Source of the DNA: Rhizophagus irregularis
Taxonomy: Eukaryota > Glomeromycota > Glomeromycetes > Glomerales > Glomeraceae
NCBI RefSeq assembly: GCF_026210795.1
Contig: NC_089433.1
Location: 2,319,001 to 2,383,000, forward strand
Direction: 5' to 3'
DNA: 64,000 nucleotides
Shown one piece after another: positions 30,957 through 59,277 of the stretch. The notes beneath the pieces are model-generated. The model saw only the letters and a list, made by a program, of their open reading frames with translations, was not told where the DNA came from and ran no database searches. Every line of letters starts with the position of its first letter. Position 1 is the first letter of the stretch. The position numbers and the translations under genes are program-made.

Positions 30957-31330
30957 AAAAAAGCTTATAAAATTTTGATTGTGTTGTGGGTTTTCTTAAT
31001 CAATAAATTTATTTAATTTATTTAATTTATTATTAATTTGAAAAATAGACTTTGTAGAGAAAGTATTAATAATTTTATTAAATTTTATAAAAAAAAAATT
31101 ATAAAATATTGGGGTAATTATAGAGGTCTCGTGAACCGCAAACAGTTTACGTAATTGTCACAAGATCGCGATTCGCGAAGCGGAAGTTAATGACGTAGTG
31201 ATTTACAAATAAATATTTGTTCAGATGACGGATAAAATTTTGTTTTCCTGATTTCCTTCCTTTGATAGTATAATATCAATAAAATTTTTTGTGTATTAAA
31301 CGCCCTTTTTCAAACTCAAAAAAAAAGAAA
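30957..31330. other. Intergenic region upstream of kinase 1
   Basis: 374 bp with no gene. A relatively GC-rich patch (about 31125-31200, including gatcgcgattcgcgaagcgg) contains the self-complementary tcgcga/ttcgcgaa and may be promoter sequence. Confidence 0.4.
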
Positions 31331-32737
31331 ATGTCTCTCGGAATTAATAGTTATAGTTACAACCAATTAATCACCGAAATACAAATAAAAATGCAAAATA
31401 TATTTCGAACAATGAATACAAAATATTGGACAAGTGGAAATAATCAAATCGATGAAATTATAAGAGCGTCACAACGTAGAGCAACGGATAATGAGGATCG
31501 AAATCATTTCCTTGAATGGATAAATATTCATAGATTTTCCAACATAAGATATATTTCCAGCGGAGCTTTTGGAGACGTATCTTACGCTATTTGGTTCGAT
31601 GGGCCACCTATCGATGTTGAACGAGTTAAAAGAGGCCCACCATGTGATGTTGCAATCAAGTTCTTTGATTCGATTACAGAATTTATGAAAGAGGTACGCG
31701 TCAATTTTACGTGTATTTATTATGTTGAAGTTTGGGTTATGTAATTATTTTATTTTAAATAAAAAATTATAGCTAATACATAATCATAAAATGATCGAAG
31801 CCTGTTCAAGTGCATCCGGGTATTTTATTAATCGTAATTACCTTTTAAAATTTTAAATTTTAAAATCATTGAAGAAATAAAATTTTTATCTTTTATAGAT
31901 TTGGAAATCTCATTCACGTTTATGGGGTCACGAGAGGCTTAAATGGAAATTATGGAATTGTAATGCAATACGCGTCAGAAGGAAGTCTTGATTCATTTTT
32001 AAAGAATAATTGGAGATATATATCATGGGAAATCAAATTAGGAATACTTAAAGATATAGCACGTGGATTAAAAAATTTACATGATGCAGGATTAATTCAC
32101 GGAGATTTGCATTGTAATAATATAATGATAACACGAGATCGGGTGAATTATTCGATTACAGCATATATCGGAGATTTTGGATTTACAAGATCAGAAGAAC
32201 GTTATACAAATCGTACACAAATTGTTGGAGTAATTCCATTTATTGCACCAGAAGTATTGGCAGGAAAAAAATATACCAAAAAAGCTGATATATTTAGTTT
32301 TGGCGTTTTAATGTATCAAATCGTTTGTAACAAAAAACCATTTTTTGATCAAAATCATAATTTTCGACTGGCAAGATCTATATATGAAGGGTTACGACCT
32401 CAATTTAATAGAGATTTAATGCCTATATGTTATGAAACTTTAATGAGAAATTGTTGGAATTATTGTCAAAGAAGTCGTCCTAAATCCGAAAAACTGTATG
32501 AAAAATTTTCTGAGTGGGAAAGTAGTGTTTATGAAAGAGATTCTCCTTTTGAACAATATAGGTTAATAGCTGTTCCTTTACCTAATAAATGTGATCATCA
32601 GTTCGCTGTTTATACAACTCGTGTCTGGTGAGTTATTTATTTATTCTTGAATTTTTTTTAGTTAAATCTTTTGTTAATAATTATTTAAATATTTTAGGCA
32701 TTCACCACTTGCCCATTCATATTCAAAAAAAAAATAG
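31331..32737 (+). CDS. TKL-type protein kinase, paralogue 1
   Basis: Four exons (31331-31693, 31773-31819, 31899-32627, 32698-32737) encode 392 aa. The leader SGNNQIDEIIRASQ and FLEWI before the domain are typical of the hugely expanded tyrosine-kinase-like families of Glomeromycotina. Catalytic features are all present: a Gly-rich loop ISSGAFGDV, K110 in VAIKF, HGDLHCNN with D206, DFG at 229-231, and a PFIAPE activation-segment end. The usual HRD arginine is replaced by Gly (HGD), as in many family members. The last exon adds only 13 codons and its size relies on a short splice. It lies tail to tail with a close paralogue at 33177-34430. The start at 31331 is chosen because the upstream in-frame ATG-less extension has poor composition. 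Confidence 0.9.
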
Positions 32738-33176
32738 AAAACGTTAGCTGTAATGTATAAAATTTTTAAAAAAAGTACGAATTATCAGTTATGGAAACTT
32801 AAAAAATAAAGACTTTTTTTTTAAAAAAATTTCAAACTAAATAATTAAGTTTAAATAACTCTTAACCGGTCTTATCCGTCAGTCCGGACTCAAAAACGGT
32901 TGAGAAGAGAAATTGTATGAACTGGTCGTGCAAATCGTTTTTGTTTCCCAAATTAGATTAGAAATAGTATGTTAATTGCCGATTTCAGTTTATAAAAATT
33001 CATCAGTACAGAGAGAAATCTTTGATCGTTGAAAAAATTTCTTAGTTTAGAATATCATATGACTAAATCGAAAATTATTAAAATTATGATTATTTTTATA
33101 ATGTAATTTATTATATGCACTTTTGTATTGTAAAAATGAAGTGACTAATTTATTTATAATTCAATCATTTTGCGAT
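32738..33176. other. Intergenic region between convergent kinases
   Basis: The region between the two stop codons holds both 3' ends. No gene or structure is seen. Confidence 0.5.
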
Positions 33177-34430
33177 TTAAAAATAACCATTACCATTACC
33201 AGAAGGTTCAACTCTCTGAAGCCTAAAATTTTTAAAAGGAGAATTCCGTTTATAATAATTTTCTTCCCATTCACAAAATCTTGCATAAAGAGTTTCAGCC
33301 TTAGGACGATTTCTTTTCCCATTACTCCAACAATTTCTCATTAAACTTTCATAACAATGAGGCATTAAATCTCTATTAAATCCAGGTCGACGACCATTAA
33401 GAATATCATTAGCTAATCTATGTTTATAATGTCTATACCGCTCTGGTCTTGTATTGGTAGCTACTTGATACATTATTAATCCAAAACTATAAATATCAGC
33501 TTTTTTAGTATATCCTTCGCCCAACAATAACTCTGGAGCCATATACGGAATTACATTTTTTTGTATTCTTGAATTACTTTCATTACTTTCATCTGTTCTA
33601 CATAATCCGAAATCTCCTAAATATCCCGTAGGATGATCATAAAGATTTGTTGAAATCATTACGTTTCTGGTATGTAAATCTCCGTGAATTAATCCTGCAT
33701 CGTGTAATTTTAACAAACCATGCGCTGCATCTTTAAGAATTCCCAATTTTTCTTTCCAAGTTATAGATTCCCAATTATTTTCTAAATATTTTTCAAGATT
33801 TCCACTATTTAAGTATTCCATGACAATTCCATAATTTCCATTTTCATAATCTCTTGTTGCTCCGTAGATATGAACAAGATTTTCTAATCTATGAAATAAC
33901 GAAAAAAAAAAATATTAATATGTAAAAAAAAAAAATATTAGTATTTTATAAATATTTACCCGGAAGCTCTTGGACAAGTTCCAATAATCTTGTAAGTTTT
34001 TATAAGCTAATATAAAAAAAAAAATATGTATATATATATATAAAAAAAACTCGTGATACTTATTTTATTTTATATTTATTTTTTATGAGCGTACCTCATT
34101 AAAAAATTCTTTATCCTTTTTAAAAAATTTAACAACGATGAAACATTCTCCCTTCCTATTAAATAACCTATCAAATATATCAGCGCTATTTGATGGACCA
34201 TCTTTCCAGATAGCGGAATATATTTCACCAATTCCTCCTCTTGAAATATATTTAAAATTTACTAATTTATTAAATTCAATCCATTCAAGAAAATCATCAT
34301 CGTCAATTGAATTACGTTGTGATGCTTTTAAGATTTCATCAATTCGGTTGTTTCCACTAGATATATTATTATCATAAGGTCCCAAAAATCTTGCGAGAGC
34401 TTTCATTAAATCTTCATTAAATTGGGTCAT
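33177..34430 (-). CDS. TKL-type protein kinase, paralogue 2
   Basis: Three minus-strand exons (34430-34095, 34006-33960, 33888-33177) give 364 aa. Both intron positions and phases, and the 47-nt middle exon, are the same as in paralogue 1. The leader is SGNNRIDEILKASQ and FLEWI. Catalytic residues are the loop ISRGGIGEI, K101 (VVKFF), D198 in HGDLHTRN, DFG at 220-222 and PYMAPE. HRD is again HGD. Unlike paralogue 1 it has no extra C-terminal exon; it ends in a Gly/Asn-rich tail. The ATG at 34430 matches the paralogue start context. I expect an active Ser/Thr or dual-specificity kinase; substrate unknown. Confidence 0.9.
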
Positions 34431-35586
34431 TTTTTTTTTGACTTTAAAGAAAGACGGAGACAACAAAAATCATGCACGCACGAGTTTTAGAAAACGAATG
34501 TCACACGAGGCACAGAGATCACGCGAATTCAGTTTATTTAAGTATGCTGAATTACCAAATGCGGCTTAGTTAAACTCCATAAAATTTAGTAACATTTTAT
34601 TTTATCCGAAATCCTTAAATGATACTTTGAGAGAAATGATTGTATTGAGGAATGAAGATAATAATCGTAAAAAAATGCCAAAAAGAACTTATTGGAGAAC
34701 CAAATTTGGAAAAAGAACCTTTTTATTTACGGTTAATCCACTAAAAATGGGCTCGTTATTATTGGAAGAAACTTTTGATGAGGCCTAATCATTTAGATAA
34801 AGGAACAGATCAAAACTGACATATCAGGAGAGCACAACGGAATTTCTCTTGTTCTAAAAAGCCAATTAATTTTACATGCTAAACGACAAACTATTTATTT
34901 ATTATGATAAGGGTTTATTGTACAGGTGACTTACCCAATAAAATTAAACTCTATTGTGAATAAATTAGGTTATATTAATTACACGAATGGTAAATTCAGA
35001 GATCATACCGGTTATAAACGGCAGAATACAAAATGATCGAAACTGACTCATAATTTATTCTCGGAATGATTATTTATTCTTACTAATTTTTGTAACGGCT
35101 TGATTATCTTTAAATCTAGATTAAATACAATTTAGATTTTTCATTTAATTAATTTATACGTTACACAGATTTTTCTTATTTTTGGCGCAGAATTACGTAA
35201 ATAATGATCCGATTTTTCTCCACGAAAACAAATTAATAATCAGCATAAGAGATAAATAATTTTTCATACATTGATTTATTTACTAGAAAGTTCTATCATT
35301 TGATGAAAAAAATGTATATGTATTGCCAATTTTTGCCATCATTTACTAAAAAAGCGAAAAAAAAAACAATAATAGTAATAAAATAAAATCGTCATATATT
35401 CAGATTCGTTTGCCAATTTAAGAACCTTCGTTTGAACATACTTATATTTACTTACGCCTTATATTAAGAAGATTTTTACCCGAAAATTTTTTTTAAAAAA
35501 CTAAAATTTCATAAATAAACATAAACTTAATATTTTCTGATGAAAAGTAATTTCAAAAATACTAAAAAGATTCGATTAATTTTTTG
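34431..35586. other. Intergenic region
   Basis: Upstream of kinase 2 and downstream of the HMG gene. No credible frame or repeat was recognised. Confidence 0.5.
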
Positions 35587-38180: not shown

Positions 38181-41100
38181 TAGTGATCCGATCCTATTTC
38201 TAAATGGTCATCCGGATCCAATCCCAAATCTCTTCAGCAGATCTGGATTTCCATCCGGATCTGAAATTTTACGAATTGATCCTTAATTTAGGATCTATCC
38301 GGATTAATCCTTATTTGCATTAATTTAAGATCTATCCAGATCTATCCCAATCCGAATTTTAGCAGATCATCTGTGATCCATAAATTTTTATTGGTCCATT
38401 TACTTGAAGCTTGCGCCTTCGGAGAATTTATTTATTTTTTTTAAAAAAAAAATTAGTCCGCTAATATATTATTATAGAAATTAGTAGTTTATATTTAATA
38501 TTAATGAATATTTCATTTATTCCATATATTCTTGTTATTTATTACAAATTTAAATACTAAAAAGTAAAAAAACGGTTTAACAAATAACAATTCATAAATT
38601 CAAGGTTAATATTATTCAACTTCGTCCCACTCTTTTGCAAAAACTTCCATTGAACGGATATTCCTCTTTAAAAACAATATCTGACCCACTAAACTTGTGT
38701 CTAAACGATTTCTTTTTGCTGAAATTAGTGAACCAGCGTGAGAAAATAACCTTTCGCTTGACACAGAAGTAGCTGGAATCCCAAGGTATTTGCGGGCAAT
38801 TTGTGATAACTTTGGAAAATTTCCTGCATGAACTCGCCACCAATCCAATGGATCTTCTGCTTTCAATGCAGCTGGCATTGCCAAATAACTATCAACTTCA
38901 TCAATAGTTACAGGTGTTAACGGTTTTTTAGTCTTACTTTGACGGCGCTGGCGGTATTCTTTTTGTGAACGCAATGAAGATTCTGCACCTGAAAAAGGTA
39001 TGATTGGATTAGATGGCTCTGCTATAGGTGCTATTGGTGTTGTGTTATTTGAGTTATTAGAATTCAACTCATTAAACTCATCACAAAGTTTTTGAATTAT
39101 TTCAATTTTTTTATCTTCTAGTTCTAAACTTAACTCCTTATAACGCAGATCTAATAAAGTAGCCATTAATCCTGTATCATTGGGGTATCCCAGTAATAAA
39201 GTAATGCATTGTAAACATTATTTTTTACTTTTTCCAAAATTCCTTCAGTCTTTAATGGATCTTTAATAGAGATTTTCTTTTTGGTAATGTTGCTTATAAT
39301 CTCTTCATTATCGATTTCAACATCACCTTCTTCAAATATTGTGTCTTCATTAAGATAATCAGCATCATTTGATGGCAGGTTTTCTGAGTCAGTAGCTAAA
39401 TCAAAGGTGAATTCCTTAATAGTTAGCATCATTTTACTAAGCGTTACATATGTACCTCCAGAAAAATATCGAGTTGCTCCCTCAAATGGAGATAAAAGAT
39501 CAATTAATTTGTCTAACAATTCCCATTCTTCTTCGGATAACATGATTTTTTTTAGTTTAGTACCATCCTTTTTATCCTCTCTATTTGTACTAGTATATAA
39601 ATCAGTCTGAAGTTGAATTATTGCATCTTTGAGATAAAAAAGTCTATCCCAAGCATAATATGAAGAATTCCAACAGGTCTGTACATCTTGTATACAGCGC
39701 ATTATATCCTCATATCCCAACTTACGCTGCACTTCTTCCAATCTTTCTATCTGCTTTTGTGTTGAAAAAAAATTGAGTATATGTTTTGTACGTGCAGCTA
39801 AAATTTCTACAGGTACCAATCCTTTCCCAATTGCTAATTGAAGTGTGTGTGTAACACAGGGAAGTCTTTGAATAGTTTCACATTGATCTTTTTGAGTTAA
39901 AATAGGAAATGCCGCCTTCATATTAGAACCGTTGTCAGTAATAATTGCTGTTACACGCCCATTAAGATCCCAACTTGAAATGCAATCATAAAGTAATTCA
40001 GCAACTAAATTTGCAGTATGAGGAGATGGTGCATACTTTATCTCTAACATTACATCTTTGACCTTAAAATTGGGCGTAATCCATGCAGCCGTAATACCAA
40101 TATATCCATGCTTAGCCCTACTGGACCAAAGGTCCGTGGTAAGAGATACTGTTGCAGCAGTTTCGTTTAGAATATTCTTTAAATTTTCATAATTATGTTG
40201 ATAACTTTTAGCTATCATAGTTTTAATTTTTTGTTCTCCAGGTACTACAAATGAAGGATCAAAATGGGACATTTTTTCTTTATATGCTGGATTTGTAATA
40301 GTAGCAAGAGGTTGATCGGTAAGCAACATCCATTTAAGAACTGATTCTTCTCGTTGTTTTTGAATATGCTTAGGATGAGGTCGACAAAATTGAGCAAAAT
40401 CTGTGATTTTTGTATTTCGTAGCTAAATTTAAATATAATTAAAACATTAATAAAAAACTTTAAATAAATTTTTAATTGTAGCAAAAAATTTTACCCTTTT
40501 CAGAGCATTTTCATTATCCTCATCGATAATTTGATGAACATCTCGTAAATGTACAACAAGATTTCCAGTTGAGCTTCCTGTATTTCGATATACTTTACCA
40601 CATCGATTACCATTTTTATCCAAGATTATACAAGTATGAGTTTATTCTCCTTTTATATTGTATCTTATTTCAAAGTGATTTTTCGTAAATGATGATTTTT
40701 TTCTTTTATTTACATGATTTCCGCTTATAGAACTTAATAGGGAACTTGTTTCAGTTTCTTTTTTTTTAATAAAAATTTGAATGATTATTAATTTTATTAT
40801 TGAAAAAAATTTCTTAATTTAAGCTTATTTAGATATCTTTATCTTTTTCTGAAAGGTTTTGTTCGATTATGTCAATATTAAAATCATCACTTTGAATATA
40901 GTTAGAATCATCCATTTTATTTTTAATATTTTGTATTTTATTTATTAGAGTAATTACATTTCAAAGAAATTTGAGGGATTGGAGAAAAAAAATTCAGTAT
41001 TAGTAAAGAAGGAAATAAAAAGGGGTTGTATAACCGCTCCATTTCATAAAATTTTTTTATAAACGATAAAATGGAAAAGTTCAGGAAAAAATCAAACATT

Positions 41101-55192: not shown

Positions 55193-58100
55193 TCAATCTG
55201 AATTATTGCTACTAGAAGAGCTATTCTTTTCGTTATCAGCTTCTTCACCCTCATCATCTTGTCCAAGCTCAAATTTCTTTTTACTAGCTTTACCGGTTTT
55301 ACCATGTGAGGTAAATGGTGTTGTTAAATCGCTTTCTTCAAGTCTATAAATATGTATAATGTTTAATTGGTATAAAAATAAAAATATATTAAATAACATA
55401 AATATCGATAAAGAAGATACTTACTTTCTAAACTCGTAACCTCCTTCTCCATCAAAACGAAGCAACCATTCGTGATATTTAACTAATTTGTTTAAAAGTA
55501 AATATTAAAACTATATATATCTCAACAAAAACAAAAAAAAAGGCAACATAAAAACTTGTAGTACACTCACACTATAATAAAATTAAAGCATAAAAGCACA
55601 ATAATCAAAAAGTTAAATTAATTAGCAATGAATATCCAAGGAAAAATGTAACGAAATAATTAAAAAAAAAATTATTACCAATGAATGCCTATGAGATACA
55701 GTAAATAATGTAATGCCTAAAGTACGAGCATGGGTGTACATAATACCCTCAACATCAACACTTACTGCACTAGTACATTCGTCTAAAATTGCCTATTGAA
55801 AATTATAGTCAATAATTCGTAATTCGTAAATCAAGTAATATCAAAAGGAAATTTCTTACAAATTGAGGACGGTGGTAAAAAAGTCTAGCCATGGCTATTC
55901 TCTAAAGTTAAATGAAAAAGGTTAATCAAATCTCGATTAATATACAATGTTCAAATTTATTCACCTGTTTTTCCCCACCCGACAAAACATCAGCCCAATC
56001 TTGAACTGCATCCCAGCCTCCATCACGCTTCACCAAATATTCTAAATGAACGACATTAAGTAATTCCATTAATTTGCCATCATCAAACTCCTTGAAACGT
56101 GCTTGAGCTTTCGTATCTGGATAGATAACCTAATTAAAGAATATATATTCAACAAAAATAATTATGTAAAATAAACGAGAACTAATAATAATCTATTTCA
56201 TACCTGATCACGGAGCGTGCCAAGCGCCAAGTACGGTTTTTGAGGTACGTAAAACAATTTTGATGCTGTTGGCTTAGTAACAACACCATCTATAAATTAG
56301 GATTTATCTTAGTTTATATTATGAATCTAAATAGAAATTTAAACAAAATAATAACATACCAAATAAGGGCCATAAATCACCAAGAATACGGAAAAGAGAA
56401 CTTTTTCCCTAATTTAAAAGAAATTAATTGTACGGGACTTCTCCGATATGCTAAAGTAAAGTAATAGTTAAGAAAGTATACATACGCATCCATTAGGTCC
56501 GGAAATAAGGCAGTTCATTCCCGTTTCAACTTCGAAAGATAACTCTTTCACCTATAATTATCGAACTATAAGCAATTTGCAACGAACAAATATAGATAAA
56601 GGAATGGCATTTACCAATATGTCATTATTTGGTGTAACAATAGGAACTTTTTCAAAAATAATGACTCCATCTTTTGTTATAATTTTTCCTTTGAGATCGT
56701 TCGGTGTAACCGCTATGGTTCACAGAGAAATATGCAAATAAATTACGGATACTTGAATAATCACAAATTATAAAATCAAAGCGTTTTATTACCTCGGCTG
56801 ATATTAGCTTCATTTGAGTCATTGTTTATCATTGTACGTTCATATCGCCCTTTATTAACATCCTCAAGAACATCAAAAAGTTCTGCAACACGCGACTATT
56901 TAAATAGAGAATAATTTGATTAATAAATATCTAGAATAATTGAGAAAGAGAAAAGTAGACATACAGTATATCCCGCAAATCTGGTCAAATCACGTCCAGC
57001 AAGAATTAATCTACCCACAGCTTGTGATAAATTTACAAGATAACCAGCTAAATAAAAAAAAAAGAGTTAATCTACATTACAATGTTAAAATAAATAAATC
57101 AATGTTACTTACAATTTCTTGAATAATCTTCCATAATCTTCGTTGGGTCGGAATCGAGTTTGCCCATATATTCAGTGGCTTTAAAGATAAACAGATTATA
57201 TTTTATAATTTTATATTAAAACATGATGAAATATTTACTTAAACATACCATATTGCGGGTTAAATACAGGGCGTGCCAGCAAGCTAAAAAGGATTATATA
57301 ATTTTGTGATTTCAAAAGTAATAAGTAATATAAAATAGTAGATAACATACTAGTACGCTGTCATAGTGGCACAATATTTAACCAATACTGAATCGAAAAT
57401 TCCATTAGCGAACCGAAGTCGATATATTTTTTTCACGTGTCGCACAATCTTATCAAAACTTCCATTTACAACAGTTCGCTCTCGTTCACCACCGCCATAA
57501 AAGGCAATTTCTTCAGAGTGAGTGATAATTCTCGACTAGAAAATGAATAATAAAGTGAATATCGAAGAATCAATGAATCCTATAATCCGAAGGAAAAAAA
57601 AATTTATTATTACATGTGTGAACCTAAAATCACCTTCAAGTTTTTGTTCTATAGCGGTAACTGTATAAAATTCGGAGAGAAGGAATTTAGTCACAAAAAA
57701 AAATTTCTAAAAAAAAATGGAAATACCTTACATTTTCCGAAAGGTGGTGAAATTGCACGTAAAAGAGCACCGGAAGTAAGGAAGTACACGATCATATAAA
57801 TCGGAGCTAAATAATAAGAAACAAAATAGAATGAATACATAATTTAACTGAAAGAATATAGCTCATTAATTAGATTACCTTCTCGACCACTAAAACGCGT
57901 TACACGTATACGTTTTGGAATTTATATGAATAATTTGTCATTTTTTCTTTCTTTCTTTTTTTTTTTTTAACAAAAACATGGATAAAAAATGAATTGAAAA
58001 TTATAGTTCATACATGGCTTCACCCAGTTTATATGCAAACAAAACTATGTCTACTAGGGGCTTGGTAATATCCGAATATAAATGACTTAGATTTTCTGCG

Positions 58101-59277
58101 AATTTATCAATGTCCTAATCAAAAGAAGGAAGCTTAACCATCTTGCAGGTTTTTAATATGATAAACCGAAAGTAATCGAGTTTATACCTGTGTCAGCAAT
58201 TGATCCGAATTCTGGATTCGGTTATCGATATTCGATATTTTGTAGAAAGTAATATCTTTTAAATATTGTTCGTGAGCATACTGTAAGAAAAGAAAAGTTT
58301 ATTTTAATTTAAATCGTAAAAATTAAATAACAAATAAATTTACCCTTGTAAGCCTAGTTCGGAACGCTAAAGACAACGCGCTTATAGTAAGTTTCAATGA
58401 ATTATTCACTATACTCATTGGCCACTATTATAATTAACATAATTGACTATATAAATAGAAATAATAGACGCGTGAAAAATAAAAAAAAAAGTTAACAAAG
58501 TGAAATACCATCATAAATCCAAATTCCACAACGGCTCGAGCGATAAAAGTTTTCCGATCGCGAGATACAATCGCTTTAACAACATGTCTGTATAAATTTT
58601 AGAACCGAGTACTGTGAGTGCGACTAAAACAAAAAACTAATACAACATCACTTAATGACACACCCGTTAAATCCAGAAAACCTATAAAATGTAGCAAATA
58701 AATAAAAATTATAATTAATTATGAAGATAAATAATTTATTAGTCATTCTTATAAGTTCATTGCATATTATTAGGTGACAATTTTTGTCAATATAACTGAC
58801 AAAATAAATTTTAATAGTTATACACGCTTTTTTTTATTGATAGATTGCTAATCTGATATTTACCATATATCAAGCCATGTGCGAGCTATTAATACCATAG
58901 CTAAGCTTATAAGCAGAGCGGCTTCCTTACTGGCGACTCCTAATAAAAGTCGAATATATAAAAAATGAACGCGGAAATTGCTGAAAAGACAAAGGTTAGA
59001 ACAACAACTTACCTGGTATACAAATTGGCAATAATTTTTTGATCTGCGCTAAGAAACGCGCGTCTACACCGATTCTTTTTTGTTTTCTATTTCTGTTATC
59101 TTGGCCTTCTGCAGCACGCGCTGCGGCACGTTCGGACTGTTTCTTTTTCTCTTGTTCGACATATTGCTTGATTAAATATACAGCCGCAACACTAATAATA
59201 AGTACAGCCGATCGCTTCTTTGAAGAAATTAATGATTTGGGAGATATTTCGGCAAATGAAGACATATTCTGCCCCAT
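55193..59277 (-). CDS. Peroxisomal ABCD-type half transporter (fatty acyl-CoA), with microexons
   Basis: Twenty-five minus-strand exons, 715 aa: 59277-59013, 58939-58864, 58681-58664, 58587-58509, 58424-58344, 58280-58188, 58114-58014, 57889-57879, 57806-57732, 57660-57614, 57535-57351, 57283-57249, 57178-57113, 57047-56965, 56895-56793, 56712-56615, 56551-56486, 56408-56360, 56289-56204, 56129-55965, 55901-55860, 55792-55679, 55571, 55482-55425, 55343-55193. The subfamily D membrane domain shows [21 protein letters not shown] and an EEIAFYGG-type EAA loop. The nucleotide-binding domain has Walker A GPNGCGKSS (490-498), signature LSGGEKQ (588-594), Walker B AILDEC and H-loop H642. These proteins dimerise and import long-chain acyl-CoA into peroxisomes for beta-oxidation (Pxa1/Pxa2, ABCD1-3). 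Exons of 18, 11 and 1 nt are required by the frame. The Ser/Asn-rich acidic tail is extra. Confidence 0.9.
55571..55571 (-). other. Predicted single-nucleotide exon of the ABCD gene
   Basis: On the minus strand the sequence reads ttttattatag-T-gtgagtgtac. It is an acceptor with a polypyrimidine/AT tract, one base, then a near-consensus donor. Exon 22 ends in phase 0 after HRHSL; exon 24 needs one extra base to give [14 protein letters not shown]. The single T makes the codon TTT (Phe 647) at the junction, where family members carry an aromatic residue (SLWKYH in ABCD1). Confidence 0.65.

Follow-up and report, generated by a model that had tools for sequence, protein, structure and literature searches.

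Can a single nucleotide serve as an exon in a conserved fungal gene? An ABCD-type transporter gene on the minus strand of the window (by which we mean the whole 64,000-nucleotide stretch of Rhizophagus irregularis DNA analyzed here) raises this question where its exons 22 and 24 meet. The best explanation that we found is that one base, T55571, is a constitutive one-nucleotide exon with an ordinary GT-AG intron on each side, the first of 107 nt and the second of 88 nt; judged from genomic sequence, we put the probability of this reading at roughly 84%. The original prediction had proposed such an exon. Splice-site models, path enumeration, paralogs, and residue spacing all favor that candidate, but the proposal had overlooked rival exons of 7, 10, and 16 nt, which must be weighed against it.

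By its translation, the host gene is an ABCD-type half-transporter gene, nearest to ABCD3. Its predicted product of 716 residues, encoded by 25 exons if the one-nucleotide exon is counted, carries three matches to PF06472 (ABC_membrane_2), all over the cut-off in a profile search, and contains GPNGCGKSS, LSGGE, and SHR, which we take to be the Walker A motif, the signature, and the H-loop. When a C-terminal piece of 77 residues was compared with the Protein Data Bank, its residues 1-75 aligned to ABCD3 without a gap (E about 5e-33), and ABCD3 is the best match both among half-transporters and for a single stretch; by total score the top match is a two-domain protein, ABC transporter D family member 1. 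We found ABCD-type genes at three further places in the genome, one each on C16, C29, and C32. A published survey of ABC-D genes in this species counts 4, or 5 with fragments, and speaks of exon boundaries corrected by hand; its passages on ABC-D genes say nothing about an exon at T55571 (PMC4692070). The region that holds T55571 occurs once in the genome: a second copy was considered and rejected, the sole match in a DNA search being the region itself.

The model of the transporter gene includes two other short exons on the minus strand, of 11 nt (57879-57889) and 18 nt (58664-58681). Among the ten control genes retained, the shortest listed core exon is at least 38 nt, a false 24-nt exon of L004 aside. 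Elsewhere in the window, two long overlapping minus-strand frames (38612-40422) resemble, by eye, a hAT-type transposase split in two. At 31283-34469, similar kinase-like frames face each other on opposite strands and, also by eye, resemble an inverted pair of related genes.

Exon 22 ends in CATTCATTG at 55679, in phase 0, with the donor GTAATA next to it; exon 24 begins with TTAAATATCACGAATGG at 55482 and is preceded by ACAAATTAG. The start of exon 24, TTAAATATC, needs to be read xTT AAA TAT, which leaves it one base short after exon 22. The 196-nt gap between these exons contains TTTTATTATAG-T-GTGAGT, with the T at 55571. The features of the locus, from the whole gene to the disputed junction and the exons that follow it, are these:

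55193..59277, minus: ABCD-type half-transporter gene (gene model and translation, PF06472, structure matches)
55679..55792, minus: exon 22, ending in the H-loop stretch TVSHRHSL (sequence and gap-free alignment to ABCD3 and paralogs)
55572..55678, minus: first sub-intron, 107 nt, GTAATA...TTATTATAG (donor 5.17 bits, acceptor 7.35 bits)
55571, minus: candidate exon 23, a single T that would open a Phe codon (path ranking and homology)
55483..55570, minus: second sub-intron, 88 nt, GTGAGT...ACAAATTAG (donor 4.87 bits, acceptor 3.68 bits)
55425..55482, minus: exon 24, two bases of the Phe codon and then 18 residues (sequence and paralogs)
55193..55343, minus: exon 25, C-terminal tail and stop (gene model); a skipped, frameshifted form would also terminate in it

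When T55571 is included, the junction reads TTG-TTT-AAA (Leu-Phe-Lys) and the frame is restored; when exon 22 is joined directly to exon 24, the result is a foreign 25-residue tail with a stop in the last exon. Inclusion of the base is required for the reading frame, for the conserved motif, and for its spacing. Each element of the anatomy first described here (the end of exon 22 at 55679, the GTAATA donor, the acceptor-T-GTGAGT arrangement, and the T itself) can be read in the sequence, and the accompanying claims about the frame were borne out: direct joining does break it and loses the conserved segment, and the T does restore it and supply Phe.

Homology bears on this junction through spacing more than through identity. 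A search of bacterial and archaeal genomes with the C-terminal alignment gave at least 554 confirmed relatives, the best 80 of which, many of them cyanobacterial, were used. A His stands exactly eight residues past the H-loop, as in SHRHSLFKYH, in 79/79 script-readable sequences of these best 80, and the remaining relative (L049) has the same spacing by eye. Against a profile of the best 80, the protein with the one-nucleotide exon scores 96.5 bits, followed by the forms with 7 nt (89.9), 10 nt (88.5), and 16 nt (86.5) and by the skipped form (78.3). Because replacing the Phe with Val, Ile, or Leu still gives 96.2 bits, and with Trp 95.2 bits, the profile evidently favors the spacing far above the residue. 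The three paralogs, which carry no intron at this junction, align without gaps and read SLFKYH (C16), SLWKYH (C32), and SLLQYH (C29). It had been suggested that ABCD proteins carry an aromatic residue at this position. Phe is indeed the commonest residue among 79 of the best 80 relatives (28, with L 21, K 18, V 4, I 4, D 2, E 1, and T 1), and two paralogs have Phe or Trp, but an aromatic residue is not universal, as the many Leu and Lys attest.

Splice-site strength provides a separate line of evidence. Donor and acceptor models were trained on introns of the same genome, drawn from the transporter gene (minus the disputed intron), its paralogs, and chaperonin genes. The final training set holds 85 introns from 11 genes and was reached from earlier sets of 104 and 102: three false introns and one missed intron were corrected (L008, L011), and then L002 and L012 lost all their introns (7 each), L004 lost two, and L008 lost one, on the grounds that coding sequence had been excised as introns in L002, L004, and L008 and that L012 had doubtful extra exons. 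L002, which is the C29 paralog and was read directly, and L012 were retained as sequence. Under a model that excludes the transporter gene itself, the sites at T55571 are an AG acceptor and a GT donor of normal strength: the acceptor (7.35 bits) exceeds 54/85 true acceptors, and the donor GTGAGT (4.87 bits) exceeds 13/85 true donors. For the outer sites, the donor (5.17 bits) exceeds 17/85 and the acceptor (3.68 bits) 13/85. A test for branch points in the 102-intron set found no clear motif, so none was used.

In enumerating all paths between the flanking exons, we accepted GT or GC donors, required introns to be 40 nt or longer, and capped internal exons at 150 nt. Of the paths that reach an 11-residue stretch past the junction, 113 keep the frame and contain no stop; 7 of these use a single intron and 106 use two. 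The one-nucleotide exon ranks highest (19.78 bits with the 85-intron models), ahead of exons of 16 nt (16.58) and 7 nt (16.02), all with the full exon 22; next come paths that use T55571 with a shortened exon 22 (15.00 and 14.47). The first training set gave the same order, which held before and after cleaning: 20.53 bits for 1 nt, 17.72 for 16 nt, 17.45 for 7 nt, and 13.43 for 10 nt, with a second one-nucleotide path, a T at 55565 behind an acceptor ending TGTGAG, at 13.15. One-intron paths were rejected, the best of the 7 scoring -5.61 bits with the 85-intron models; with the first set the top score was -4.89 bits, for a path that depends on a GC donor and puts 18 residues in place of the Phe. 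Also rejected was the acceptor GATATATATAG upstream of exon 24, which restores the phase and produces a stop (TTG-TTT-TAA). It had been claimed that every other nearby GT or AG choice introduces a stop or leaves the phase wrong; this is mistaken, because the 7-, 10-, and 16-nt exons are in frame and stop-free, although they rank lower. On splice sites alone, the one-nucleotide exon leads its in-frame alternatives by no more than about 3 bits; on homology it leads the 7-, 10-, and 16-nt forms by 6.6 to 10 bits, and gene finding that takes no account of homology disagrees.

That disagreement deserves description, although the gene-finder and crude-model results rest on uncleaned models. Run with no penalty on short exons, the gene finder placed 10-nt and 5-nt exons at the site and a spurious one-nucleotide exon elsewhere in the transporter gene; penalizing exons shorter than 15 nt made it choose the 16-nt exon. 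A crude first model that allowed one-nucleotide exons picked T55571 but used a strong false donor that wrongly shortened exon 22; with a minimum exon length of 12 nt, it too chose the 16-nt exon. Ab initio gene finding from splice and codon scores, then, does not reliably choose the one-nucleotide exon, and the test is not discriminating. Within exon 22, on the minus strand at 55765, a strong donor, GCA-GTAAGT, lies where the conserved SAVSVDVEG is encoded; it leads gene finding astray and may be cryptic or alternatively used.

How readily might such a site arise by chance? Among 40,000 simulated 196-nt introns of intron-like composition, scored with the 85-intron models, 168 (0.42%) contained a one-nucleotide exon with sites this good, and 602 (1.5%) contained any frame-restoring, stop-free exon of 1-28 nt that was as good; the uncleaned training set gave 220 and 634 of 40,000. 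Across both strands of the window, 6/174 AG-N-GT sites score as high, T55571 included (8/174 with the uncleaned set). The site is unusual for one intron and not unique in the sequence, so the case rests on its coincidence with the base that the frame needs.

Intron length points in the same direction. Undivided, the intron would span 196 nt. No intron among the 85 measured reaches 190 nt; the two longest span 176 and 182 nt, and 5/85 are at least 107 nt; the divided introns would be 107 and 88 nt. A 176-nt intron in a CCT chaperonin gene (L011 934-1110) was itself given a false exon by the gene finder, and there one ordinary intron is enough.

The alternatives differ in what they ask of the locus. 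Longer microexons sharing the acceptor of T55571 or using a nearby one would place extra residues before KYH, and there are three of them:

55556-55571, minus: rival 16-nt exon, CECTTI replacing F, donor GTTTTT
55565-55571, minus: rival 7-nt exon, CEF, donor GTACTA
55556-55565, minus: rival 10-nt exon, CTTI

All three are in frame and stop-free and leave exon 22 whole, the 16-nt form is what the gene finder selects once very short exons are penalized or forbidden, and the gene model already has exons of 11 and 18 nt; longer microexons are, moreover, far commoner than one-nucleotide exons in general. Against them stand their donors, GTACTA (0.97 bits) for the 7-nt and GTTTTT (1.57 bits) for the 16-nt exon, each of which exceeds only 3/85 true donors, and the residues they add where the best 80 homologs and the three paralogs have none. 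On splice sites and homology together they lose about 10 bits (7 nt), 13 bits (16 nt), and 15 bits (10 nt, first training set) relative to the one-nucleotide exon, before any prior on exon length, and we regard a longer microexon as unlikely. A base missing at an exon edge, from the assembly or from the gene of this strain, is somewhat less likely still: exon 24 might, for example, begin with TT in place of TTT, so that one 196-nt intron would suffice. A missing T there would yield an identical mRNA, and introns of 176 and 182 nt show that long introns exist. The assembly, which we take to be the published one of strain DAOM197198, was polished with Nanopore and genomic Illumina reads, the Illumina reads at 227-232x coverage (PMC10234402), which argues against a lost base. 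About 14,700 coding bases in the ten control genes gave no noticed frame break in translations or alignments, a count to be read with the caveats that the gene finder's choice of splice sites can hide such a break and that the genes were not checked singly. The lost base would also have to fall in the junction codon itself, and a site of the quality of T55571 would then be present by chance (0.42%).

Two further readings dispense with both an added exon and a lost base. If one 195-nt intron were removed with non-canonical GT-TA ends, which amounts to TA-AG, an extra G would stay behind and the junction would read TTG-GTT-AAA, with a Val that the homolog profile accepts nearly as well as Phe (96.2 vs 96.5 bits) and that occurs in 4/79 of the best 80 homologs. 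To our knowledge GT-TA introns are vanishingly rare; such an intron would exceed all 85 measured, and it would leave the sites flanking T55571 unexplained, so that we judge it very improbable. Least credible of all is that no extra exon exists and that the 196-nt intron is removed whole, giving a protein with the frameshifted 25-residue tail. The stop of that form lies in the last exon, where exon-junction-dependent decay would not be expected, and the form is plausible as a minor isoform; it loses a conserved 17-residue segment (78.3 vs 96.5 bits) whose counterpart all three paralogs keep. The longer microexons would insert TGTGAGT or TGTACTACAA between the exons. The predicted mRNA strings across the junction are:

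CATTCATTGTTTAAATATC: one-nucleotide exon
CATTCATTGTTAAATATC: skipped form
CATTCATTGTGTGAGTTTAAATATC: rival 7-nt exon
CATTCATTGTGTACTACAATTAAATATC: rival 10-nt exon
CATTCATTGTGTGAGTGTACTACAATTAAATATC: rival 16-nt exon
CATTCATTGGTTAAATATC: GT-TA intron
CATTCATTGTGTGAGTGTACTAC: half-spliced, first intron removed and second retained
TTTTATTATAGTTTAAATATC: half-spliced, second intron removed and first retained

The strings of the one-nucleotide and skipped forms would be hard to tell apart by Nanopore because they differ only in the length of a T run, and cDNA alone cannot separate a one-nucleotide exon from a T missing at the start of exon 24, since both give TTG-TTT-AAA.

If T55571 is a one-nucleotide exon, it would supply the first base of the Phe codon (T-TT) just past the H-loop, and the last conserved segment of the nucleotide-binding domain would again be read in frame. 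The complexes of both splice sites would hardly fit on one base together, so removal of the two introns is most likely stepwise, in a recursive-like manner, and each removal would leave the other intron's site intact beside the joined exon. Either order is workable on paper. After removal of the 107-nt intron, no donor close to the joined ends outscores GTGAGT (3.95 bits), the out-of-frame GTGTGA having 1.96 bits; after removal of the 88-nt intron, the acceptor of T55571 still scores 7.65 bits.

This arrangement invites comparison with the stwintrons of fungi, nested twin introns in which two introns occupy one place and are removed consecutively (PMC9024468, PMC12403724). The geometry of a [D1,2] stwintron is also found here, where G55679, an intron, and T55571 follow one another. 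Unlike in a stwintron, the in-frame donor GTGAGT is intact (3.95 bits) and one exonic base stays behind. Membership in the [D1,2] class was therefore rejected: the donor that would result, GTGTGA (1.96 bits), is out of frame, with an offset of -1. One may nevertheless imagine that the exon arose when a second intron appeared beside a phase-1 intron, so that stwintrons and one-nucleotide exons would be two outcomes of one kind of event, and that T55571 acts as a splicing switch—its inclusion giving the full ABCD3-like transporter, its skipping a last-exon stop and an ATPase domain whose final part is broken. We consider this combined scenario doubtful, about as unlikely as a longer microexon.

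The constitutive one-nucleotide exon that we prefer would join a short list. Among the cases found in the open-licence literature, nuclear one-nucleotide exons are few, namely two plant gene families and one Fusarium P450, and no report of one in Rhizophagus irregularis was found there. Single-nucleotide exons are reported from mitochondria too. The mitochondrial cases splice by other means. Since exons of this size escape automatic annotation, conserved genes may be on record with false frameshifts.

For the exon of Arabidopsis APC11, proof came from cDNA and from substituting the base in protoplasts (PMC4674806). The likeness to T55571 lies in one base between AG and GT, a conserved protein whose frame depends on it, and an annotation that missed it; the differences are that the plant base is an A and the undivided intron 422 nt, as against a T and 196 nt in the present case. 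The one-nucleotide microexon of plant VPS55 is likewise absent from reference annotations, and its GTRAGT donor is comparable to GTGAGT here; it differs in being conserved across land plants, backed by RNA, and alternatively included in some plants (PMC8831610). The closest counterpart is fungal. The single-nucleotide exon of Fusarium CYP621A, which its authors claim as the first in a fungal gene and which has 18 reads behind it and occurs in 20 orthologs, also lies within the codon of a conserved motif, and its undivided intron is, as here, more than twice the median length (PMC12940212). That exon, an AG-G-GT in the Ascomycota, is documented by reads and orthologs, whereas the candidate T in Glomeromycotina is known from genome sequence. 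With the Fusarium case already published, T55571 would not be the first one-nucleotide exon in a fungus (PMC12940212); it is probably a further exon of a known sort, in another gene and another fungal group.
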